Assembly (NCBI GenBank): GCA_003575245.1
Contig: NMQN01000849.1
Coordinates: 1-8,889, forward strand
DNA length: 8,889 nt
From: Candidatus Atribacteria bacterium 1244-E10-H5-B2
GTDB taxonomy: Bacteria; Atribacterota; JS1; SB-45; 34-128
Direction of reading: 5' to 3'
Shown here piece after piece: positions 1-8,889 of the stretch; the first letter of the stretch is position 1, and each line of letters starts with the position of its first letter. The translations under genes and the position numbers were made by a program. The notes under the pieces are model-generated. The model saw only the letters and a program-made list of their open reading frames with translations. It searched no databases and was not told the origin of the DNA.

Positions 1-948
1 GAAATTTCCCCAGACATTATATTTTTTGGGCATTAAAAGAGGAATGGTTCGAAAATTCATTAATCCGTAACCATAATCAATGCCTATGGAAAATTTCGCC
101 CAATCTTTCATTTTCTCAAAAGTATCTTCTCCAATAATCTCATGTTTCACTAATGCTTTCATGAATTTCAGTAAATCTTCGGATGTAGTCACAATTCCAC
201 CACCAGCATAATCAATACTGAGGCTGCGGTATTGGGTTACATCGGTATTGCCGGAATATAAATCTGCCACGGGGTACTCATTTTTTACTATTGATTCAGA
301 ATAATGAGCCAAATATGAGTGATTCATCTGAAGAGGCTGAAAAATGTAATGCCGAAGTGCTTCATGAAACGGTGTTGAGGATATTTGCTCAATAATTAAT
401 CCTAAAATATGATAACCGGTATCTGAATAATGAAACCCCTTTCCGGGTGGGAAATGTGATTTCAAATGCTCTTTAGACCATTGGATCGTTTCCTGGGGTG
501 TCCAGAAACGGGATGGTTCATCAAAAATTATATCAATCATCGATTTACCCTGTTTTGGTTTATCATCGAAATAGTCATGCAAACCTGAGGTATGATTCAA
601 TAAATGTTTTACTTTTATATTGCTGGTATAATCCTTCCCCTGGTAAATATGTAAGTTGTGCAATAGATTATTTTCTAAAAACTGGGTGATTGTATCTTCG
701 TAAGATATCATTCCCTTTTCAACCAAAATGCCCATAAGAACAGAGGTAAACAATTTACCAATACTGGCAATAAAATAAGGTTGCTGTGCATTGGCAGGCC
801 TACTGCCGGTTGAGCCTTCTGCTATATTCAGTTGAATGCCAAGCTTTTCCGAATGGATTAACAAATATGCATTGTGTATTTTTCGGTCTTTCTGTACTAT
901 TTTAGTAAAATGTTCCGAAATTAATGATTGAACTTTTTCTTTCTTCAT
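1..948 (-). CDS. Serine hydrolase, class C beta-lactamase/PBP-like (3' end beyond window)
   Basis: An open frame of 316 codons runs from ATG at 948 to the left edge without a stop, so the C-terminus is missing. It belongs to the serine beta-lactamase/D-alanyl-D-alanine carboxypeptidase-like hydrolase superfamily. The nucleophile motif SxxK is S62-I-G-K65, in the context FIASIGKLFTS. The second motif YxN appears as Y174-S-D176 (FHYSDTGYHILG), a variant I know from esterase/peptidase members. The family landmarks LLNHTSGL (116-123) and YAGGGIVTTSEDLLKF (247-262) are also present. The third motif (H/KxG) should lie just past the edge, after NVWGNF. The start is supported by GAGGAG at 959-964, 10 nt upstream. 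No signal peptide or membrane segment is visible at the N-terminus, suggesting a cytoplasmic esterase or peptidase rather than a cell-wall enzyme or true antibiotic-resistance beta-lactamase. Substrate is unknown. It lies 64 bp after the small membrane protein gene and may share its transcript. Confidence 0.9.
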   Translation of the reverse strand, partial: MKKEKVQSLISEHFTKIVQKDRKIHNAYLLIHSEKLGIQLNIAEGSTGSRPANAQQPYFIASIGKLFTSVLMGILVEKGMISYEDTITQFLENNLLHNLHIYQGKDYTSNIKVKHLLNHTSGLHDYFDDKPKQGKSMIDIIFDEPSRFWTPQETIQWSKEHLKSHFPPGKGFHYSDTGYHILGLIIEQISSTPFHEALRHYIFQPLQMNHSYLAHYSESIVKNEYPVADLYSGNTDVTQYRSLSIDYAGGGIVTTSEDLLKFMKALVKHEIIGEDTFEKMKDWAKFSIGIDYGYGLMNFRTIPLLMPKKYNVWGNF

Positions 949-1012
949 TTACTTACCACTCCTCTTGTAAAGTCTCTTTAGCTATTACTAAATAATATGC
1001 TTTTGGTTTTCC

Positions 1013-1357
1013 TTATCTGGGTCTGACCAGCCCTCCCAGAGCTCCACCGACTAATCCTAATAAACCGAAATAAAGGGTAGATATAAAAATTCCTCCTCCC
1101 AATATTGTTCCAACCGTTCCACCTAATACCCCTCCAAATAATCCACCAGAAAAAGTGCCTACCAAACCACCTAAACCAGGGAGGATAAGTAATGCCAATA
1201 TTCCTCCGAAACTCCCGCTTAAAAAACCAGCTAATGCCCCCTTTCCTGCTCCTCTAACAATCAATCCGGCGATAAAACCAGCAAGAGGTGGACCGAATAA
1301 AGGAATAAAACCCAGAAAAGACATAGCTATAATTCCCACTAATACTCCCCAAAACAT
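1013..1357 (-). CDS. Small glycine-rich integral membrane protein (DUF5518-like, unassigned)
   Basis: This encodes 114 residues, about 33 of them glycine, almost entirely hydrophobic. I read it as a compact multi-helix membrane protein with likely segments near residues 3-21, 22-34, 41-59, 61-80 and 83-110. Charges are confined to a short loop (R35, K39) and the end (R112, R114), suggesting that these parts face the cytoplasm. Many GxxxG and GG pairs (for example GGLFGGVLGG at 71-80) imply tight helix packing. The loop region GPPLAGFIAGLIVRGAGKGALAG has the look of DUF5518-type proteins, but that is pattern memory, not a search result. The start at 1357 is chosen because AAGGAGG (1363-1369) lies 5 nt upstream. 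The frame stays open to 1540, but those 61 extra residues cross a palindromic repeat and are not membrane-like. Function is unknown; it precedes the serine hydrolase gene. Confidence 0.75.
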   Translation of the reverse strand: MFWGVLVGIIAMSFLGFIPLFGPPLAGFIAGLIVRGAGKGALAGFLSGSFGGILALLILPGLGGLVGTFSGGLFGGVLGGTVGTILGGGIFISTLYFGLLGLVGGALGGLVRPR

Positions 1358-1494
1358 ATTGACCTCCTTTTTTATTTCTCCTCTCGAAGAAAGCTTTCTA
1401 TTTTCTATTTTTAATACTAATACGACAAAGGTTTTAAAAATCCTTCTTTTTAAAAGAAAAAGTTTCTGGTTTTTGGAGGGAGGGGGAAAGATAG

Positions 1495-1541
1495 ATTGCC
1501 ACGGGGAGCACTCAATTGATATTGAGTGCTCCCCTCGCAAT
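1495..1541. repeat. Palindromic interspersed repeat (REP/MITE-like hairpin)
   Basis: Perfect 14-bp arms GGGGAGCACTCAAT (1503-1516) and ATTGAGTGCTCCCC (1521-1534) flank a 4-nt loop. An outer pair, ATTGC (1495-1499) with GCAAT (1537-1541), extends the stem after a short asymmetric bulge (CAC against TC). On the minus strand the ends read TGTCATTGCGAGG and GTGGCAATCT. I recognise these from memory as the ends of a short palindromic repeat scattered between genes in many bacterial genomes. The unit is non-coding; it could be folded by RNA or moved by a REP-associated transposase elsewhere in the genome. Confidence 0.7.
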
Positions 1542-1699
1542 GACAGAGGGATTAAAACTAATAATATTTACTTACAAATGGGGGAAATGTGTAAAGCCTG
1601 TGGGAAAATACTTTCTTGAAAGTCTTGTATAACAAGGATTTATAAAAGAAAATAAGACAAAGTACCATCCCCTGTCATAAATGAATATCGTTTTCAAGC

Positions 1700-1734
1700 A
1701 ATAAATTACCCCACTAAAAGCGGGGTAATTTATT
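1700..1734 (-). terminator. Intrinsic terminator-like hairpin after the NADH oxidase gene
   Basis: Thirteen-base-pair perfect arms (1700-1712 and 1722-1734) enclose a 9-nt loop. The stem has CCCC/GGGG next to the loop and an AT-rich base. It starts 19 bp after the stop codon of the flavoenzyme gene, the right place for a terminator. On the minus strand the U-rich part (AATTTATT) belongs to the 3' arm itself and no long T run follows, so termination may be incomplete. In the plus direction the hairpin is followed by TATTATATTTAAAT. Confidence 0.6.
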
Positions 1735-1752
1735 ATATTTAAATAACTAAAT

Positions 1753-3111
1753 CTACTTTTGTGCTAATTTAATTTTCTTTGCTACAACTTCAGCACATTT
1801 AATAAAAGGATAAGCAGTCGGTGGAGCAGTAAGCAACGGATGAGTACCTATTTGTGCAGTCAAAATGGAGCTTACAGTCATTTTATTTTGGATTGCTAAC
1901 CCAATTATATTAATTAGCTCTCCTGTACTTTTACTACTAATAACTTTACCACCGAGAATTATGCCCGAATCTCGGGCAACAATTAATTTTACCATTTGTT
2001 TATGAGTATGTGCAAGAGTTCCTGGATGCTTATCGATTCCATCAAAAGTCCCGATAACCACATCGCACCCTTCTTTTTTAGCCATTGATTCAGTTAATCC
2101 TGCTGCACCAAAGGCTGTTTCCCCTATTGCTGTGGAGAAAATAGCAATAGTTCCCTCAAAGGTTTTTACAGAACGGAGTTTATATAAATTCATACCAGCT
2201 ATTCTTGCTTCTGCACAGGCAGTAGATGCCAACATAACTGCACTTGGTTTTCCTGTAACGAAATCCTTTTTTTCTGCACAATCTCCTACTGCAAATATAT
2301 CCGAATTTTCCGTTCTCATATACCCATCTACTTTAATATATTTTCCTTCACTTACCTTAAACCCTGACTTCTGAGCTAATCCTGTATTAGGACGATAACC
2401 CATTGTTAAAATAACTACCTCTGCTTCAATTTTTTCTCCATTTTCTAATAATACTTCTGTAACTTTTTTATTGCCTATTATCTCCTTGACGCCTTCGCCA
2501 CTTTTTATTTTTACTCCTCTTGTTTTAAGAGCCTCTTCGGCCTGAACAGCTATTTTTTCATCGAAAATTAAACCTAATATATGAGGTAATATTTCTACAA
2601 GTGTTACTTCCTTCCCTAATTTATTAAGTTCATCTGACATCTCAACTCCGATGAATCCTGCACCGATAACCACTATCTTTTTGCAATCTTTGATTTTTTG
2701 GAAAACTTTATCAAGGTGTATTTTGTCTTTGCTTATAGTAAAAACATTTTCCAAATTTGTTCCTTTAAGCCAATTAGGTATGATAGGAATTGAACCTGTT
2801 GCAAGTATAAGTTTTTCAAAACTAATCTCTGTCCCTTTGGCAGTACTACAAACCTTTTTATTTTGGTCTATAGATATTACCTCATCGACTTCAATTTTTA
2901 TACCCTTATTAGTTAAAACAGCATCTGGTACAATATTTTTATCTGAGCTTCCTAATGAACCAAAAATATAAGGAATCCCACAAGGAACCATAACTTTTTC
3001 TTCTTTTCTTATAACCAAAAACTCTTTTTTCGGATAATTAGATTTTCCAGTTAATGCTGTAACAATGCCTGCTGCACTTCCTCCGATTATTAATACATCT
3101 GTTTTTTCCAT
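1753..3111 (-). CDS. FAD-dependent NADH oxidase / CoA-disulfide reductase family protein
   Basis: This 452-residue protein is full length for the pyridine nucleotide-disulfide oxidoreductase family with a single active-site cysteine (NADH oxidase, CoA-disulfide reductase, NAD(P)H sulfur reductase). The FAD-binding GGSAAG is at 10-15. The redox cysteine is C44 in MVPCGIPY, the place expected for the CoA-disulfide reductase group. ATGSIP is at 104-109, the NAD(P)H-binding Rossmann motif GAGFIGVE at 150-157, and the second FAD motif DIFAVGDCAE at 271-280. The C-terminal dimerisation domain ends in the typical HPLLTAPPTAYPFIKCAE stretch (424-441). No rhodanese domain follows. It is predicted to be cytosolic, using NADH or NADPH to reduce oxygen, CoA disulfide or polysulfide; the sequence does not decide which. 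AAGGAGG (3122-3128) lies 10 nt before the ATG. It has its own promoter and a terminator-like hairpin, so it is probably monocistronic. A dodecin gene lies 195 bp upstream. Confidence 0.92.
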   Translation of the reverse strand: MEKTDVLIIGGSAAGIVTALTGKSNYPKKEFLVIRKEEKVMVPCGIPYIFGSLGSSDKNIVPDAVLTNKGIKIEVDEVISIDQNKKVCSTAKGTEISFEKLILATGSIPIIPNWLKGTNLENVFTISKDKIHLDKVFQKIKDCKKIVVIGAGFIGVEMSDELNKLGKEVTLVEILPHILGLIFDEKIAVQAEEALKTRGVKIKSGEGVKEIIGNKKVTEVLLENGEKIEAEVVILTMGYRPNTGLAQKSGFKVSEGKYIKVDGYMRTENSDIFAVGDCAEKKDFVTGKPSAVMLASTACAEARIAGMNLYKLRSVKTFEGTIAIFSTAIGETAFGAAGLTESMAKKEGCDVVIGTFDGIDKHPGTLAHTHKQMVKLIVARDSGIILGGKVISSKSTGELINIIGLAIQNKMTVSSILTAQIGTHPLLTAPPTAYPFIKCAEVVAKKIKLAQK

Positions 3112-3149
3112 ACAATTGTTACCTCCTTAAATTTTGTTACTAACTGGAA

Positions 3150-3178
3150 ATAGTAGCATAATTTTATGCAATGGTCAA
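3150..3178 (-). promoter_or_regulatory. Sigma-70-type promoter for the NADH oxidase gene
   Basis: On the minus strand, TTGACC (3173-3178) and TACTAT (3150-3155) are separated by exactly 17 nt. Each box matches the consensus in five or four of six positions. Transcription would start near 3143, leaving a leader of about 30 nt that contains the AAGGAGG ribosome binding site. Confidence 0.7.
3156..3169. promoter_or_regulatory. Inverted repeat within the promoter spacer, possible operator
   Basis: GCATAA-TT-TTATGC is a perfect 6-bp inverted repeat occupying most of the 17-nt spacer between the -35 and -10 boxes. A protein bound here would block RNA polymerase. No regulator gene is visible nearby, so the operator role is inference. 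Confidence 0.35.
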
Positions 3179-3180
3179 TC

Positions 3181-3200
3181 AATTTAAATCAATTTAAATC
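3181..3200. repeat. Two tandem 10-bp AT-rich units next to the -35 box
   Basis: The unit AATTTAAATC occurs twice in perfect tandem (3181-3190 and 3191-3200). Each holds the palindrome ATTTAAAT, so the palindromes recur at one helical turn. They lie directly upstream of the -35 box (3173-3178) of the NADH oxidase promoter, where an UP element or activator site would be expected. Confidence 0.55.
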
Positions 3201-3224
3201 TTGTTGTCTGTGTCAACTCTTTTT

Positions 3225-3255
3225 ATTAATATTAATTATTGAGTTAATATTTAAT
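3225..3255. repeat. AT-only imperfect inverted repeat
   Basis: ATTAATATTAA (3225-3235) pairs with TTAATATTTAAT (3244-3255) with one bulged base and an 8-nt loop. It lies about 50 bp downstream of the dodecin stop codon. It has no G+C and no T run follows on the minus strand, so it is a poor terminator candidate and may simply reflect base composition. Confidence 0.25.
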
Positions 3256-3306
3256 CATAAATCTTGAGAGTTGGTATATTTTTTTAATAATATTTATTAA
3301 TGATTT

Positions 3307-3513
3307 CTACTTTTTATATTTAAATGAAATATCTAATTTTGTCCTAAAAGTTAGGCTGCCATCTTTCTCTACTTTAATATCAAGCTTATTTACTTCGGCT
3401 ATCCTAATTTCCTCAATCGATTTAGAAGCAGTCTCTAATGCAACTTTTGCTGCGTCCTCCCATGACTTTTCACTGGTACCTACAATTTCGACAATTTTGT
3501 ATACACTTCCCAT
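3307..3513 (-). CDS. Dodecin family flavin-binding protein
   Basis: This 68-residue protein matches dodecin in length and layout: a first strand VYKIVEIVGTS (4-14), one helix SWEDAAKVALETASKS (17-32), then two strands, IRIAEVNKLDIKV (36-48) and LTFRTKLDISFKY (54-66). Dodecins assemble as hollow dodecamers that bind riboflavin, FMN or lumichrome (CoA in some bacteria), buffering free flavin in the cytosol. The flavin-stacking tryptophan of characterised dodecins (motif LRWFEV) corresponds here to Ile38 in IRIAEV, so ligand binding may differ. The start is supported by AGGAGGT (3519-3525), 5 nt before the ATG. The flavoenzyme gene downstream fits a flavin link, but has its own promoter. The spacer to the HD-GYP stop is 137 bp and shows neither a clear promoter nor a terminator, so read-through from the sensor gene is possible. 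Confidence 0.9.
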   Translation of the reverse strand: MGSVYKIVEIVGTSEKSWEDAAKVALETASKSIEEIRIAEVNKLDIKVEKDGSLTFRTKLDISFKYKK

Positions 3514-3650
3514 TTTGCACCTCCTACTAAATATTAATTTTTATTCACTTTATCGAATATTTAAACAACGATTAATCTTGCTTATCTGTATCAATATAAA
3601 AATACATTAGATAAAGAAAGACAAAAAATCCGTAAAGTTTTCTACTTCGT

Positions 3651-5963
3651 TTATTCAAATTTAAATTCTTTCTCTTTAAATAATTTCAGGCAAGCATCTA
3701 CTACTTCCGGGTCATAGAGGGTACCTTTGTTTTGGGAGATTTCTTCCAAGGCTTTATCTGTGCCTAATGCCGGCCGATAAGGACGGTGAGAGGACATCGC
3801 TTCTACTACATCAGTTACTCCTATAATGCGGGCTTCAAGTAGAATCTTATCAGCCCTTAACCCGTTAGGATAACCTGAACCATTTAATCTTTCATGATGC
3901 TGAAGAACAATTTGAGCTATAGGATAGGAAAAATCTATGGATTTTAGAATATCATGTCCTATTTGAGAATGCCCTTTTATTAAACTGAATTCTATATCAG
4001 TTAACTTGGTGGGTTTACTCAAGATTTCAGCAGGTAAAGCGATCTTTCCTATATCATGGATTAAAGAGGCTATTCTTATTCCCTCAATCTTATCTTTAGG
4101 AAGTTTCATCTCTTGGGCAATACGGATGGCTAATTGGCAGACCCTATGCTGGTGGCCGGAGGTGTAGGGGTCTTTGGCCTCTATTATCCTGGACATGGTG
4201 TCAATAGTTGCATCCATGGTTTTTTTGAGTCTTTCTTCTGCCTGCCTGCGCTCGGTGATGTCGCGAACAAATTCAACTACACCTGTAATTTTACCCGAAT
4301 TAGAGTCTTTTATCGGAAAACTATAAAGTTCAATCCACTCTACAGGAGAGCCCGGAAGTCCCGGTACAACATTCCATTCTGTTTTGCCGGATTCCAAACA
4401 ACGAAGGGACGGGCAGGGGTCACACGGCTTATCCGCATTATGATAGACTTCATAGCACTTTTTCCCTTCCAAAGGAAGGTTTTCTTTATACCATTTATTC
4501 ATTATTCCATTGACATGGCTGACAGTCAGATCAGGATTAAGTACGCTGACACCATCCTGAACACTTTCAAATATACTATTTAGAAATTGTTCATTTTTTT
4601 TCAAATCTTCTTCTGCCTGCTTGCGCTCGGTGATATCATCATAAACTGCAACAATCTCACCAGAGGACAGTTTATAGACGTGGTTCTCTCTCCAACCAGT
4701 AATCCTTTGGTCTTGGTAAAAGGAGATAGGATAGTGTTGGGGCTTCCCGGTTTTGTATACTTCTTGAAAGGCTTTGAAAAGGCCAAAATCTTTTACTCCG
4801 GGGAATACCTTAAGGACACTTTTTCCAAGGATATCCTCTTTTTTTACTTTTTCAATCTTCTCTGCAGCTCGGTTAAAGTCTTTAATCATAAAATCTCTAC
4901 CATTGTCTTTAGCTTCATATATTGTTACCCCACTACTCATATGTTTAAACAGTTCTCTGAATCTGTTTTCTCTCTCCTGTATAGCTTGTTCTGCTTGTTT
5001 GCGTTCAGTTATTTCTTTTCGAACCTCTTCAAATAATCGAGCATTCTCCAAAGCCATAACAGCTGCATTGGCTAAAGGTTGTAATTTTTTAATATCATCT
5101 TTAACAAATTTACCGGGAGTATCACTATCTAAATTCAATAATCCTATAACTTTGTTACCTAAACAGACGGGCATAGACAAACGTGATCTTATCCAGCCGG
5201 TTTCCTTAAAAATAATCCAGTGAGGATCCTGATGGGTATCGGGAATTAATAAAGGTTTTGTTGATTTAATCACTTTTTTATCCAGAGAAAGTTTAGCTAC
5301 TGGAGAGGTAAAACTATTTACAAATTTTTCACTGCCATATTTATCATATCCCACTGAGTGAGCATTAAATAATCTTCCTTTTTTGATAAGGACAATATTA
5401 CAGGCAGAATAAGGGACAAGACGTTTTACCTGTCTAAGTACTTCCTCTAATACATCCGAGAGGCTGAGTTTTGAGGTAAGAATAAGAGCAACTTTGGCTA
5501 ATGTCACTGCCTTTAAATGTTGCTCCCGTTCCTTTTTCAGTAAAGATTTTCGTTTTTTTTCAGCACTCTTACGTTGGGTGATATCACGGATATAAGCTAT
5601 AAGTCTGGGTTTTTCCCCAATATTGATTAACTTAGTTGCAATTTCCGTAGGGAAAATAGCACCGTCTTTCTTTTTACTTATACGTGATACGAATTTACCA
5701 TGAGTTGTTTCTTTTTCGGTAATAATTTTAGGTAGCGTCTTAATAAAATCTTTAGGAACTAAGTCGCTAATAGTTAAACTGACTATTTCTTCTTTGGTGT
5801 AGCCGAACATTTTTGCTCCAGCAGCATTACATTCAAGTATGCGGCCTTCTACTGTCTCTAAAAAAACAGCATCGGTAGCCATTTCTACCTGAATTCTATA
5901 TTTTTCTTCCGATTCTGCTAATTCGGCAGTGAGTTGTTCTTTGGTCTTTTTCGTATCTTTCAT
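3651..5963 (-). CDS. PAS-GAF-PAS-PAS-HD-GYP sensor, predicted cyclic-di-GMP phosphodiesterase
   Basis: This encodes 770 residues with no membrane segment or signal peptide, so a cytosolic sensor. Domains in order: PAS (about 20-130, ending YIRDITQRK), GAF (165-308), PAS (330-447, ending DDITERKQAE), PAS (455-572, ending RDITERRQAE) and HD-GYP (585-765). The output domain keeps the HD pair H636-D637 in IHDIGK, GHSQIG (664-669), H689-H690-E in QHHERLNGSGYP and the GYP triplet at 697-699. It is therefore expected to hydrolyse cyclic-di-GMP with a bound di-metal centre. The third PAS carries a cysteine cluster (C503, C514, C517, C522) that could bind metal or sense redox. The start at ATG 5963 is preferred: GGAGAG (5973-5978) lies 9 nt upstream. 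A TTG at 5999 would add 12 residues but has no ribosome binding site. No GGDEF or response-regulator partner is in the window. The ligands are unknown. Confidence 0.92.
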   Translation of the reverse strand: MKDTKKTKEQLTAELAESEEKYRIQVEMATDAVFLETVEGRILECNAAGAKMFGYTKEEIVSLTISDLVPKDFIKTLPKIITEKETTHGKFVSRISKKKDGAIFPTEIATKLINIGEKPRLIAYIRDITQRKSAEKKRKSLLKKEREQHLKAVTLAKVALILTSKLSLSDVLEEVLRQVKRLVPYSACNIVLIKKGRLFNAHSVGYDKYGSEKFVNSFTSPVAKLSLDKKVIKSTKPLLIPDTHQDPHWIIFKETGWIRSRLSMPVCLGNKVIGLLNLDSDTPGKFVKDDIKKLQPLANAAVMALENARLFEEVRKEITERKQAEQAIQERENRFRELFKHMSSGVTIYEAKDNGRDFMIKDFNRAAEKIEKVKKEDILGKSVLKVFPGVKDFGLFKAFQEVYKTGKPQHYPISFYQDQRITGWRENHVYKLSSGEIVAVYDDITERKQAEEDLKKNEQFLNSIFESVQDGVSVLNPDLTVSHVNGIMNKWYKENLPLEGKKCYEVYHNADKPCDPCPSLRCLESGKTEWNVVPGLPGSPVEWIELYSFPIKDSNSGKITGVVEFVRDITERRQAEERLKKTMDATIDTMSRIIEAKDPYTSGHQHRVCQLAIRIAQEMKLPKDKIEGIRIASLIHDIGKIALPAEILSKPTKLTDIEFSLIKGHSQIGHDILKSIDFSYPIAQIVLQHHERLNGSGYPNGLRADKILLEARIIGVTDVVEAMSSHRPYRPALGTDKALEEISQNKGTLYDPEVVDACLKLFKEKEFKFE

Positions 5964-6043
5964 TTTTTTTAGCTCTCCAAAAATAAAGAAATTGTACAAA
6001 GCATTATCTATTAAGTAGCGGCGGTAAATTTTGTTACATATAT

Positions 6044-6049
6044 ATTATA
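6044..6049 (-). promoter_or_regulatory. Possible -10 box for the HD-GYP gene
   Basis: A perfect TATAAT on the minus strand (within GTATAATATATATG) lies about 80 nt before the start codon. No good -35 hexamer is found at 16-18 nt; TTGAAA is present but only 9 nt away from TATAAT. The surrounding AT-rich run makes chance matches likely. Confidence 0.3.
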
Positions 6050-6097
6050 CGATAAAGATTTCAAAAAGACCTCTTTTTTTAAAAAATAGTTTTACAA

Positions 6098-6159
6098 GAT
6101 GTGAGTTGCAAGATTATTCAATTGACCAATTCACCGATTAAAAATGCGAGGTGCGAGAT
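6098..6159. repeat. Imperfect direct repeat of a 17-bp unit
   Basis: GATGTGAGTTGCAAGAT (6098-6114) and AATGCGAGGTGCGAGAT (6143-6159) match at 13 of 17 positions. Between them lies AATTGACC-AATTCACC-type sequence, itself a weak tandem of related words. This looks like degraded intergenic repeat material rather than coding sequence. Confidence 0.45.
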
Positions 6160-6174
6160 AAATTAGTCGATAGC

Positions 6175-6250
6175 ATTAAAAACAAAACAAGAAATACGAA
6201 ATAAAGAAAGATAATGAAAGATTAAATAAAGGGGAAGAGGAAAGATGGAT
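6175..6250 (-). terminator. Pyrimidine-rich, G-poor tract; possible Rho-dependent termination region
   Basis: Read on the minus strand, the roughly 75 nt directly downstream of the ATPase stop codon are almost pure T and C with A: I count about 3 G against about 16 C. G-poor, C-containing unstructured RNA just after a stop codon is what Rho uses, and I see no intrinsic hairpin with a T run there. This is inference from composition only. Confidence 0.3.
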
Positions 6251-6256
6251 TCCCGC
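6239..6256. repeat. Half-palindrome resembling a truncated interspersed repeat
   Basis: GGAAAGATGGATTCCCGC matches in style the leading flank of the palindromic repeat at 1495-1541 (GGAAAGATAGATTGCC at 1485-1500). It also matches, from memory, one arm of a common interspersed repeat that continues with a complementary GCGGGAAT arm. Here the second arm is missing and the ATPase stop codon begins immediately (6257-6259). Confidence 0.4.
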
Positions 6257-7843
6257 TTATTTTATCTTATCTTTATGTACTCCTCCCATCATCAAACCCA
6301 ATTTCTCAACACTAACTTCATTTCGTTTTACCACTCCCATAATCTTACCCTCGTAGATAACTGCAATGCGGTCAGCGAGTGATAAAATTTCATCTAAATC
6401 ATCAGAAATGAGCAGGGTCGCTGTTTTTAGTTTTGTCCTCTGTTCAATCAATTGACGATGAACATATTCTGTGGCACTGACGTCTAAACCGCGCGTAGGT
6501 TGGGCAGCTACCAGAACGCTGGGTTTTCGGGAGAGTTCTCGTGCCAGGATTAATTTCTGAATATTTCCGCCGGATAAGCTTTTTAAAGAAGTATAACGGG
6601 AAGGAGTCCTGATATCAAAATCACTTATTAGCTGTTCACTCTCCCGAGCAATGTTTTTGAAATTCATAAATATTCCCTCAGTATAAGGCGGGTGTATGTG
6701 GTCTTTAAGAATCAGATTTTCCTCTACGGTAAATTTTTGTATTGCACCATCCCGCATTCGTTCTTCGGGAATATAAGAGAGACCATATTCGAGAAGTTGA
6801 AAAGGAGGCCAATTGGTAACCTCAGTCTCTTTTATAAACACTTTGCCTTTTGTAGATTTCCGCAAACCGGCGATGACTTCTGCAAGTTCACGCTGACCAT
6901 TTCCCGAAACTCCGGCAATTCCCAAAATTTCACCTGAGCGCACTTCCAGGTCAATCCCCCGCAGGGCAGGAATGTTCTCATCTCCCTGAGCCCAAATTCC
7001 CTCCAAAGCAAGAGATACTTTGCCGAGCTTTACCGAAGGATGTTCCACTTGAAAAAGAACTTCTCTTCCCACCATAAGACGCGCCAATTTTTCTTTGGTC
7101 GCTTCAGTAATGGGAAGAGACTTTACCACTTTGCCGTCGCGAAGTATAGTCACACGGTCACTCAGTGATAGAACTTCATGAAGTTTATGGCTGATAAAAA
7201 TAATGGAGTATCCTCTGTTTATCATACTCCGCAAGACATGAAAGAGTTCTTCCACCTCTTGCGGAGTAAGAACTGCAGTCGGTTCATCCAGGATAAGGAG
7301 AGAAGCTCCGCGATATAGAATTTTTATTATTTCTACTCGCTGCTGCTCTCCTACAGAGAGTTGCCATACCTTTGCCTTTGGATCAACATAAAGCCCATGA
7401 ACTTTGGAAAGCTCCTTAATACGTTCTGAGACAACATCAAGGTCAAGAAGAAATTTTCGCGAGGAATGAAGTCCTAAAGCTACATTTTCTGCTACAGTAA
7501 GGGTGGGTACAAGCATAAAATGCTGGTGCACCATCCCAATCCCCAGTCGAATTGCATCCAACGGAGAACGAATGTTAACCAGTTTTCCGTTAACATAAAT
7601 TTCGCCTTTATCCTGGTGATATATGCCATAAAGGATTTTCATCAGGGTGCTTTTCCCGGCTCCGTTTTCGCCAAGGAGGGTATGAACTTCCCCGGCACGA
7701 ACATTAAAATCAATTCGGTCATTCGCCAGTACACCCGGAAACTGTTTAACTATTCCCCGCATCTCTACTTTTTCGACTTTGGTTAAATTTGTTATTTTTG
7801 ATGTATCTTTTCTCATATTAAAATGTAAATCAGAGCTCCCCAT
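6257..7843 (-). CDS. BMP-type ABC importer ATPase, two fused nucleotide-binding domains
   Basis: This 528-residue protein is the energy subunit of a sugar/nucleoside-type ABC importer (YufO/NupO/RbsA-like). The first domain is complete: Walker A GENGAGKST (58-66), Q-loop Q107, signature LSVGEQ (162-167), Walker B LLILDEP (182-188) and H-loop H219. The second is degenerate in the way usual for this family: GVSGNGQREL (311-320) lacks the Walker A lysine, the signature is LSGGNIQ (423-429), AAQPTRGLD has Gln448 in place of the catalytic Glu, and the H-loop position reads SDD. One competent ATP site is therefore expected at the membrane complex. The start is uncertain: ATG 7843, GTG 7849 and ATG 7816 are all in frame, with only a weak AAGAG upstream of the first two; residues 1-22 are outside the usual domain. 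A BMP binding protein and a BMP remnant lie upstream, but no permease gene follows. Confidence 0.92.
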   Translation of the reverse strand: MGSSDLHFNMRKDTSKITNLTKVEKVEMRGIVKQFPGVLANDRIDFNVRAGEVHTLLGENGAGKSTLMKILYGIYHQDKGEIYVNGKLVNIRSPLDAIRLGIGMVHQHFMLVPTLTVAENVALGLHSSRKFLLDLDVVSERIKELSKVHGLYVDPKAKVWQLSVGEQQRVEIIKILYRGASLLILDEPTAVLTPQEVEELFHVLRSMINRGYSIIFISHKLHEVLSLSDRVTILRDGKVVKSLPITEATKEKLARLMVGREVLFQVEHPSVKLGKVSLALEGIWAQGDENIPALRGIDLEVRSGEILGIAGVSGNGQRELAEVIAGLRKSTKGKVFIKETEVTNWPPFQLLEYGLSYIPEERMRDGAIQKFTVEENLILKDHIHPPYTEGIFMNFKNIARESEQLISDFDIRTPSRYTSLKSLSGGNIQKLILARELSRKPSVLVAAQPTRGLDVSATEYVHRQLIEQRTKLKTATLLISDDLDEILSLADRIAVIYEGKIMGVVKRNEVSVEKLGLMMGGVHKDKIK

Positions 7844-7862
7844 GGGCACTCTTAATTTTTCT

Positions 7863-8104
7863 TTACTTCTTTACTTTGGCCTCAATGTTTCCTTAAACTA
7901 TATCCTAATAGTTTTGCCTACAAACGCTTGGTCATTTTCGATAATTTTAAGGCTGTCTTTAGCCAGGTTAAGAGTAAAAATTTTTCCTCCTTTTTCTCCC
8001 TTCTGAATCATTTCAATCATCGGTCTGAGTGCAACTGCCCAGAAAATATCAACACGAGAGACCACATTCTGCGGGGCAAGAGAAGTTGAACGCCCCGGAC
8101 AAGT
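7863..8104 (-). pseudogene. Decayed C-terminal remnant of a second BMP-family substrate-binding protein
   Basis: Translating the minus strand from 8104 gives about 68 residues ending at TAG 7898-7900. They align over their length with the end of the neighbouring BMP gene: TSLAP, then PMI..I..G..GG, LKI and VGKTI are shared, and by hand about 30 of 60 positions are identical. There is no start codon and no N-terminal three quarters. After VGKTI the family's ending (IQDI.EG.I) continues in another frame: skipping one missing base gives DIV, a TAA stop, then GNIEAKVKK and TAA at 7863-7865. So a one-base loss and a nonsense change have disabled the end as well. Homology begins within about 15 nt of the stop codon of the intact BMP gene and ends 19 bp before the ATPase start, the usual position of the importer's own binding-protein gene. 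This is probably the original copy, mostly deleted. Confidence 0.85.
8072..8097 (-). other. GC-rich hairpin just after the intact BMP stop codon
   Basis: CGGGGC (8072-8077) and GCCCCG (8092-8097) form 6-bp perfect arms around a 14-nt loop, about 10 nt downstream of the BMP stop. No T run follows. It could protect the 3' end of the binding-protein message or attenuate read-through into the ATPase gene, as in many importer operons. It overlaps the remnant's coding sequence, so it may be incidental. Confidence 0.3.
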
Positions 8105-8106
8105 AC

Positions 8107-8889
8107 TTATAACTTGATATCGATTTTTCCTTCGATAATGTCCTGGATCGTCTTTCCTACAAGTGCCTCCTGGTTCACAACGATCTTGAGACCTCCGTTA
8201 GCCAGGGTGAGTGCATAGGTAGTTCCACCCATTGTCCCCTCTTTAATCAATTGAATCATCGGCTTGAGAACCACGGTCCAGTCGTAGACCTGGTTGGCAA
8301 CGACGACCTCGGGAGCAAGTGATGTTTGATCGGCCTGTGTCCCGAACCAGAGAACTCCGCGTTGACGTGCTACCCCGATGGCTCCAACTACCATTTGGGC
8401 TGTCCCGGTGAGGATGTCGGCTCCAACGTTGATGTGCGTCTGTGCAGCCTCGGAAGCGAGGGCAACGTCGCTGAAAGAACCAGTCCAGTTGACGTTCACT
8501 TGAGCATCCGGCTTGGTTGCCAGCACCCCAGCCTTGAATCCATCGACGTACAGCTTAGCGTCACCAGTCTCAATTGGGCCGATTACTCCATAAACATTAC
8601 TCTCGGAAAGCTTCGCCGCCAGAACACCGCAGACATACCCTCCTTCCTCAGAGCGCGCCTCGTAAGCGAAGATATTCGTAATCCCCTGATCGGAGAAAGT
8701 GTTTACCGACGTTCCCCAGGTAAAGCTCGTATTGGGAAAATCGGGGGCAATATCCACCAAGGAACTTCCATACTGGGAACCATGGGCAATTACCAGATCA
8801 TATCCCTCGCTGGCATAGTCTCGAATAGCAGCAGCAGCGTCCGCTACTACAAACATGCTCTCTGAATAGACAAACTCGAAATTCTCCTT
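8107..8889 (-). CDS. BMP family ABC transporter substrate-binding protein (5' end beyond window)
   Basis: The frame is open from the right edge to TAA at 8107, giving the last 260 residues of a protein usually about 340-400 long. The signal peptide and first lobe start are missing. It is recognised as a Med/PnrA/BMP-type periplasmic or lipid-anchored binding protein: RDYASEGYDLVIAHG (23-37), DFPNTSFTW (50-58), YEARSEEGGYVCGVLAA (76-92), VIGPIETGDAKLYVDGFKAGV (102-122), WTGSFSD (135-141) and VGKTIQDIIEGKIDIKL at the end. Such proteins capture nucleosides or related small solutes outside the cell and deliver them to the ATPase/permease complex. The ATG at 8856 is internal: homology continues upstream of it. 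Base composition is striking: three 60-base lines counted by hand give 52-62% G+C, well above its neighbours, suggesting a different origin. The ligand cannot be told from this part. Confidence 0.92.
   Translation of the reverse strand, partial: KENFEFVYSESMFVVADAAAAIRDYASEGYDLVIAHGSQYGSSLVDIAPDFPNTSFTWGTSVNTFSDQGITNIFAYEARSEEGGYVCGVLAAKLSESNVYGVIGPIETGDAKLYVDGFKAGVLATKPDAQVNVNWTGSFSDVALASEAAQTHINVGADILTGTAQMVVGAIGVARQRGVLWFGTQADQTSLAPEVVVANQVYDWTVVLKPMIQLIKEGTMGGTTYALTLANGGLKIVVNQEALVGKTIQDIIEGKIDIKL

Follow-up and report, generated by a model that had tools for sequence, protein, structure and literature searches.

Xenologous gene displacement in situ, in which a homolog from another lineage takes the resident gene's place in its operon, usually leaves no trace. 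Homology-facilitated illegitimate recombination (HFIR) is described in three competent species and in conjugation of Escherichia coli (PMC3240628). In the displacement of Rhs C-terminal tips (PMC2935791) and of type VI secretion system (T6SS) effectors (PMC5361080), an acquired 3' part joins a conserved 5' part and the old 3' material is pushed downstream. The DNA analyzed here, 8,889 nucleotides of Candidatus Atribacteria bacterium 1244-E10-H5-B2 (assembly GCA_003575245.1, contig NMQN01000849.1, positions 1 to 8,889; hereafter the window), carries at its right end what is very probably a displacement scar, left where the gene for the resident BMP-family receptor of an Atribacterota ATP-binding cassette (ABC) importer was mostly overwritten by a homolog from another lineage.

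The junction and the kinship of the remnant

On the minus strand, a BMP gene (8107-8889, 260 aa, referred to here as the intact gene, its open frame being cut at the right end of the contig) comes first, and behind it lie a linker of 16 nt, the final quarter of another BMP gene (the remnant), and an ABC ATPase gene. An earlier reading of this DNA from its letters alone (the sequence-only reading) had described an intact, G+C-rich BMP gene abutting the amputated tail of a divergent one, and this description was borne out: the remnant begins 16 nt past the intact gene's stop codon, and the G+C content of the intact stretch (51.7%) exceeds that of both the remnant region (40.2%) and the ATPase gene (42.4%), the G+C fraction at third codon positions (GC3) being 0.56 in the intact gene versus 0.36 in the ATPase gene. 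The two copies also share, as had been estimated, about half of their residues (48%, or 30 of 62, between the window remnant and the intact tail). Membership of the intact protein in the BMP family (PF02608) follows from a single Pfam Bmp match (E 7.2e-37, 127.4 bits versus a gathering score of 24.1) that covers profile positions 32-285 of 301. The remnant peptide by itself gives no Pfam match at E 0.001, and its identity comes from alignment to six full-length genes, described next.

Searching the 50 genomes of the Atribacterota phylum set with the intact protein gave some match in 45 and a match of at least 71% identity in 7. One of these seven, G037, encodes an intact BMP protein at 90% identity, followed by another match, covering the final 72 residues, and then by the ATPase; the window and G037 align in the same order, across the junction, with 88% nucleotide identity over 2.28 kb. 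The other six genomes (G030, G033, G034, G038, G039, and G040), whose genes are called residents here, have a single BMP gene, of GC3 0.32-0.35, immediately ahead of the ATPase frame, which in G039 runs into the contig end, and in none of these six loci does a second match of the BMP type lie beside the ATPase. In both loci examined for this, G037 and G030, the BMP gene comes after two BPD_transp_2 (PF02653) permease genes; together with the double ATPase in the window, which ends before any permease, this is the gene content of a BMP-type importer operon. The features of the locus are as follows.

8107..8889, minus strand: BMP-family (PF02608) substrate-binding protein gene of chimeric origin, 5' end off the contig (Pfam Bmp; 90% to G037, 71-74% to the six resident BMP genes)
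8107-8109, minus strand: stop codon of the intact gene
8767..8856, minus strand: resident-like tract within the intact gene, codons 76-105 in the G037 frame (identity at four-fold sites)
8107..8766, minus strand: apparently foreign tract with G+C-rich third positions, codon 106 to stop (GC3 and same-codon identity)
8091..8106, minus strand: 16-nt linker from the stop codon to the remnant, perhaps the donor's 3' flank (identical in G037)
8072..8097, minus strand: possible RNA hairpin of 7 bp, half linker and half remnant (37-nt fold of -12.1 kcal/mol, z -2.3)
7863..8090, minus strand: remnant, the 3' quarter of the apparently displaced resident BMP gene (identity to six resident tails; clade support 100/100)
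7863-7865, minus strand: ancestral stop codon ending the remnant
6257..7849, minus strand: ABC transporter ATPase with two ABC domains, predicted motor of the importer, start codon not settled (two stretches matching Pfam ABC_tran)

The sequence-only reading had named a chimeric assembly join near 8106 as an outcome that would overturn it; contigs of two strains would have been joined there. The window is indeed one contig that ends within the intact gene, and near-identical proteins are numerous (P0002-P0109 at 88-100% among the matches listed). Nevertheless, G037 carries the same order and an identical 16-nt linker on a 14,872-base contig, with 88% nucleotide identity to the window, so the junction is not an assembly join; only if an identical error had been made in both assemblies would that explanation survive. 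Among the loci compared, exact matches to the linker were found only in L083 and L156, both from G037. The junction pattern had no matches in viral contigs.

The remnant is kin to the residents and not to the gene next to it. In the window it is identical to the adjacent intact tail at 48% of residues and to the six resident tails at 58-81%; in G037 the corresponding values are 53% and 75-87%. At the level of bases, the window remnant matches the six full-length resident genes at 75-87%. The G037 tail spans 76 aligned residues of the residents, whose proteins are 323-326 aa long, so about the last quarter of the gene is left. Of the 120 proteins listed as matches to the intact protein, 12 were used. 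A tree of the tail region, built with 11 of 32 Anaerolineae-labeled rows, unites remnants and residents in one clade with 100/100 support, and forcing the remnants together with the scar-type intact genes (those of the type found beside the remnants) costs 86.5 log-likelihood units and is rejected by the approximately unbiased (AU) test (p 1.9e-5). The remnants thus group with BMP genes that adjoin closely related ATPases, as the sequence-only reading had anticipated, and its claim that this is no fresh tandem duplication of one gene holds as well. A decayed sister duplicate, in which the remnant would be an old copy of its neighbor, truncated first and diverged later, would account for two BMP-family copies in tandem; given the identity values and the AU test just cited, it retains next to no probability.

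The window remnant has neither a start codon nor a signal peptide of its own and loses its frame near position 7907, so a small working protein is not favored there. Its ratio of nonsynonymous to synonymous divergence (dN/dS) to the residents over 58 codons is 0.16-0.28, compared with 0.10-0.18 for the G037 remnant and 0-0.20 among residents. Judging from its open frame and a dN/dS within the resident range, the G037 remnant could possibly encode a small working protein.

The intact gene as a patchwork and its possible source

The 5' end of the window's gene lies off the contig, and 5' mosaicism was read in the complete gene of G037. There, the 5' flank and ribosome-binding site (RBS) align with those of the residents (by eye, nearest to G039), and codons 1-33 resemble the residents in both composition (GC3 0.30) and sequence. 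Codons 34-60 look foreign, with a GC3 of 0.70 and a same-codon identity to residents of 0.49 versus 0.79 among residents. In codons 76-105, resident-like identity returns at four-fold sites in both the window (0.91 and 0.59 in the two halves) and G037 (0.81 and 0.71), the values among residents being 0.90 and 0.59. From codon 106 to the stop, the sequence again has a foreign character: GC3 in the window is 0.56-0.60 versus 0.16-0.36 in G038, and same-codon identity to residents is 0.33-0.49 versus 0.72-0.82 among residents. Along the G037 gene, GC3 rises from 0.28 at the first codons to 0.58-0.92 in every window from codon 101 onward, where resident averages are 0.16-0.43. High G+C as an effect of the gene's role is not favored, as residents at the same operon place have a GC3 of 0.32-0.35. 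The best protein proxy for the foreign parts is mostly P0109 (0.82-0.98 by segment), with P0120 or Anaerolineae proteins nearer in two segments of P0003, a full-length relative of the window protein; for the signal peptide, P0109 is a poor proxy (0.41 versus 0.57-0.68 for residents).

Judged by composition and identity along its length, the intact gene is a chimera. Since the replaced part begins inside the resident gene, recombination into that gene fits better than the entry of a whole gene beside it. The sequence-only reading had a foreign BMP gene enter next to the ATPase and remove the first three quarters of the resident; the displacement stands, and the whole-gene entry gives way to the resident-like 5' flank, RBS, signal peptide, and internal block of G037.

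For the order of events, we infer a mechanism with homology on one side. Donor DNA with a BMP homolog, from another source richer in G+C, would have recombined into the resident gene via conserved 5' blocks, the homology in these blocks anchoring the incoming strand. A mostly foreign mature domain would thereby have come under the control of the resident's own 5' flank, RBS, and signal peptide, as seen in G037. The far end of the incoming DNA, with a foreign stop codon and approximately 16 nt of flank, would have been joined at about codon 250 of the resident gene, whose final quarter would then have been left as a dead tail before the ATPase; the importer would have retained its permeases and ATPase and exchanged its receptor. 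A variant of this displacement, which we regard as rather unlikely, has a circular donor integrating by a single crossover in the 5' homologous block, with later loss of the intervening donor DNA and the old 3' end left downstream. For Rhs tips, displacement through a circular intermediate has been proposed (PMC2935791), and the final anatomy would be the same, so that the two routes are indistinguishable from the final sequence; yet no vector or second piece of the donor was seen, and the linker is just 16 nt long.

A different history, in which side-by-side BMP genes were ancestral and a deletion took the first three quarters of the downstream copy, has some precedent, as doubled BMP sequences do occur (loci of the Anaerolineae class set and L001/G053 hold two BMP matches per open frame). 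It is nonetheless improbable: in all six resident loci the ATPase adjoins a single BMP copy, and the upstream copy in G037 starts resident-like and turns foreign, which would require duplication, conversion, and deletion. As a separate observation, fused double substrate-binding proteins are apparent as two BMP matches in one frame, often of approximately 690-800 aa (G106:C152, G107:C407, G298:C5, L001/G053, P0112, and P0115).

Displacement of the receptor gene is also reflected in a conflict between the histories of the BMP and ATPase genes. The window ATPase is closer to that of G038 (94%) than to that of G037 (90%), whereas the window BMP protein is at 73% to G038, 90% to G037, and 71-74% to the six residents. 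For the window-G038 pair, synonymous divergence (dS) is 1.84 in the BMP gene versus 0.33 in the ATPase gene, a ratio of 5.6, whereas in 14 of the 15 resident pairs this ratio is 0.63-1.14. The exception is G038-G040, at 0.13. In this pair (L086 and L087), the resident BMP genes have a dS of 0.045 and the ATPase genes one of 0.36, which suggests that the resident allele, too, was recently exchanged in a separate event; the BMP gene at this locus may recombine often. In the ATPase tree, P0182 pairs with an ATPase named Candidatus Bipolaricaulota at 100/100.

A foreign source is argued for by composition and divergence. No donor was named by searches of 2 genomes, the 50 genomes of the Atribacterota set, 13 single genomes, and 396 genomes of the Anaerolineae class set or with a profile of four donor-like proteins, nor was one found in 6 genomes of the phylum of G002, where an empty result is uninformative. 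Many genomes of the Anaerolineae class set encode related BMP proteins (154 of the 396 at E 1e-60, best 77%). Near the C terminus, the 32 Anaerolineae-labeled rows that were aligned (including L002, whose title reads Acidimicrobiales) carry 6-8 additional residues that are found neither in scar-type genes and residents nor in the rows P0109-P0120. The first name-bearing match is an Atribacterota bacterium (P0019, 98%) for the BMP protein and Candidatus Atribacteria bacterium 1244-E10-H5-B2 (P0127, 89%) for the ATPase; the nearest protein with a different signal peptide, among the matches listed, is P0109 at 88%. A donor from a wider Atribacterota-like group is possible. The sequence-only reading had called the source "foreign or distant": foreign agrees with composition and synonymous divergence, and as to distant, the trees leave the two types near each other (96/86 and 56/86).

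Several points weigh against the displacement as proposed. The searches above found no donor genome. Residents, on a branch of 0.41, are placed next to scar-type genes when the tree is built from the foreign part, albeit with weak support (56/86). In the tail tree, a long branch (0.57) carries the clade of residents and remnants, whose neighbor is the scar-type protein P0104 (96/86). The two BMP types may accordingly be closely related, with the residents evolving fast, or the long branch may mislead. The 5' mosaicism comes from G037, in which the signal peptide shares 0.58 of its residues with residents, compared with 0.77 among residents, and codons 61-75 are mixed; neither placement is rejected (AU p 0.36 and 0.29) with a tree of the 5' part built without the window row. 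Finally, the ligand pockets were compared by sequence alignment, the structure model of P0003 (mean pLDDT, the predicted local distance difference test score, of 43) being too poor to use.

The ligand pocket and probable movement of the scar haplotype

Among solved structures, 3s99 and 6pi5 (AtzT) are nearest in sequence, and both are described as purine binders in PMC6834077; Asp225 of BmpA is said to engage ribose (PMC13325309). Pocket positions were taken from the contacts given in these two sources and from sequence alignments, with the numbering offset counted by hand. The two positions of the aromatic sandwich are Phe and Phe in the scar type and Trp and Tyr in the residents, and the residue aligned to BmpA Asp225 is Gln in the scar type and Asp in the residents. 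The motifs FAWSQ, GSYSD, and GYDVDQ are present in 6 of 6 residents. Among the 109 proteins P0001-P0109 (at least 88% identical to the window, some of them fragments, and including P0109 with its different signal peptide), AFSQ occurs in 105, GSFSD in 108, and GTQ in 109. Positions aligned to AtzT Ser97, Glu165, Asn218, and Asn220 are Gly, Asp, Thr, and Gln in both types, so neither keeps the AtzT pocket exactly. The ligand class may be common to both types and the preference changed; with three ligand-contact positions differing, a changed specificity is plausible.

Given the identical linker, the junction appears to have arisen once. If it had then only been inherited, window and G037 would be expected to be neighbors in the flanking sequences too; this is rejected in DNA trees of both the ATPase gene (8 rows, AU p 0.0011) and the remnant (174 columns, AU p 0.012), and the window remnant joins the resident tail of G039 (98/96). 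For the window-G037 pair, dS is 0.28 (0.19-0.38) in the BMP gene and 0.51 (0.42-0.63) in the ATPase gene, a ratio of 0.54 (0.39-0.81) that is below those of 14 of the 15 resident pairs, its interval overlapping most of them. Since the trees of the flanks split the window from G037, the scar haplotype probably moved between lineages, a conclusion in which we have moderate confidence; exchange of the ATPase gene or the tail, with the scar merely inherited, would be expected to give the same conflict between trees.

The window copy looks somewhat older than that of G037: its remnant is out of frame near the end and has a higher dN/dS, GC3 in the window copy is lower, and P0003 is less similar than G037 to P0109 in codons 103-197, although slightly more similar to it in codons 245-321. 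As a tentative scenario, which we would not favor but take seriously, the stranded tail may act as a homology arm: after formation of a first scar, the foreign receptor would have resident sequence on both sides and could be passed on as a cassette, through ordinary double crossovers, to other Atribacterota lineages, the foreign block becoming joined each time to the recipient's own tail. Such transfer would account for the same linker standing next to remnants of differing ancestry, as well as for the fresher-looking remnant of G037.

Neighboring features and comparison with known systems

Behind the stop codon of the intact gene, linker and remnant could form a hairpin of 7 bp in the window and 6 bp in G037. 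It is at most a weak possibility that varies with the stretch folded: z is -2.3 in the window and -1.8 in G037 for 37 nt, and -1.3 and -0.8 for 53 and 56 nt, respectively. Inside the ATPase coding sequence, an imperfect inverted repeat of approximately 47 nt lies at window positions 7222-7271; inverted matches at this place are also found in G037, G038, G040, G030, and G033 and not in G034. The curated NCBIfam cutoffs for a putative B6 BMP importer (NF047927/NF047930) are not reached, the ATPase scoring 503 bits in its top match (ABC_ATP_B6, cutoff 670) and the BMP protein, cut short in the window, scoring 79 with ABC_BMP_B6 (cutoff 400).

Elsewhere in the window, positions 3651-5999 encode a PAS/GAF/HD-GYP sensor of 782 aa. 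Its counterpart in G037 is an open frame of 661 aa, with 74% identity over 654 aligned codons, and the domain content may differ. At positions 1753-3513, a dodecin gene, whose region is 92.8% identical to G037, adjoins a gene for a flavoprotein similar to CoA-disulfide reductase. Positions 1-948 encode a beta-lactamase-family (PF00144) protein cut by the contig end; its NCBIfam scores are far under every cutoff shown, so no claim of resistance is made. G040 matches the window at approximately positions 4-1415 with 92.5% identity.

At this locus, the exchange of an importer's receptor, with the membrane and motor parts staying in place, would be fixed at nearly base resolution. The 16-nt linker provides a tag for tracing the haplotype through metagenomes, which opens to direct study whether receptor alleles sweep from one species to another in an uncultured phylum, and the three contact positions that changed together yield a prediction for ligand binding. 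In the titles and opening parts of abstracts on horizontal gene transfer and ABC transporters in Atribacter/JS1, on recombination in Atribacterota, and on mosaic substrate-binding proteins, no such scar is reported.

The BMP/PnrA-type purine and nucleoside receptors, such as AtzT and BmpA, include the nearest solved relatives of the intact protein, which differs from them in its ABC_BMP_B6 score, far below the cutoff. With HFIR, the locus shares a homologous block at one end, resident-like codons 76-105 preceding a long foreign tract. At the other end, the join sets the stop codon and linker inside the resident gene. The locus differs from HFIR in that the event is read from anatomy in an uncultured phylum and that the 3' end of the old gene survives. 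In Rhs and T6SS displacement, a conserved 5' part comes to be continued by 3' sequence gained through lateral transfer, as here; the sequences exchanged there are effector modules or tips without homology, immunity genes being retained, whereas here a nutrient receptor has apparently been replaced by a homolog, with a decaying tail left behind. As in xenologous displacement, a homolog occupies the place of the resident, but here the tail, the linker, and the patchwork mark the joins. The kind of event is already known; its place, its resolution, and the hint of later spread are new.
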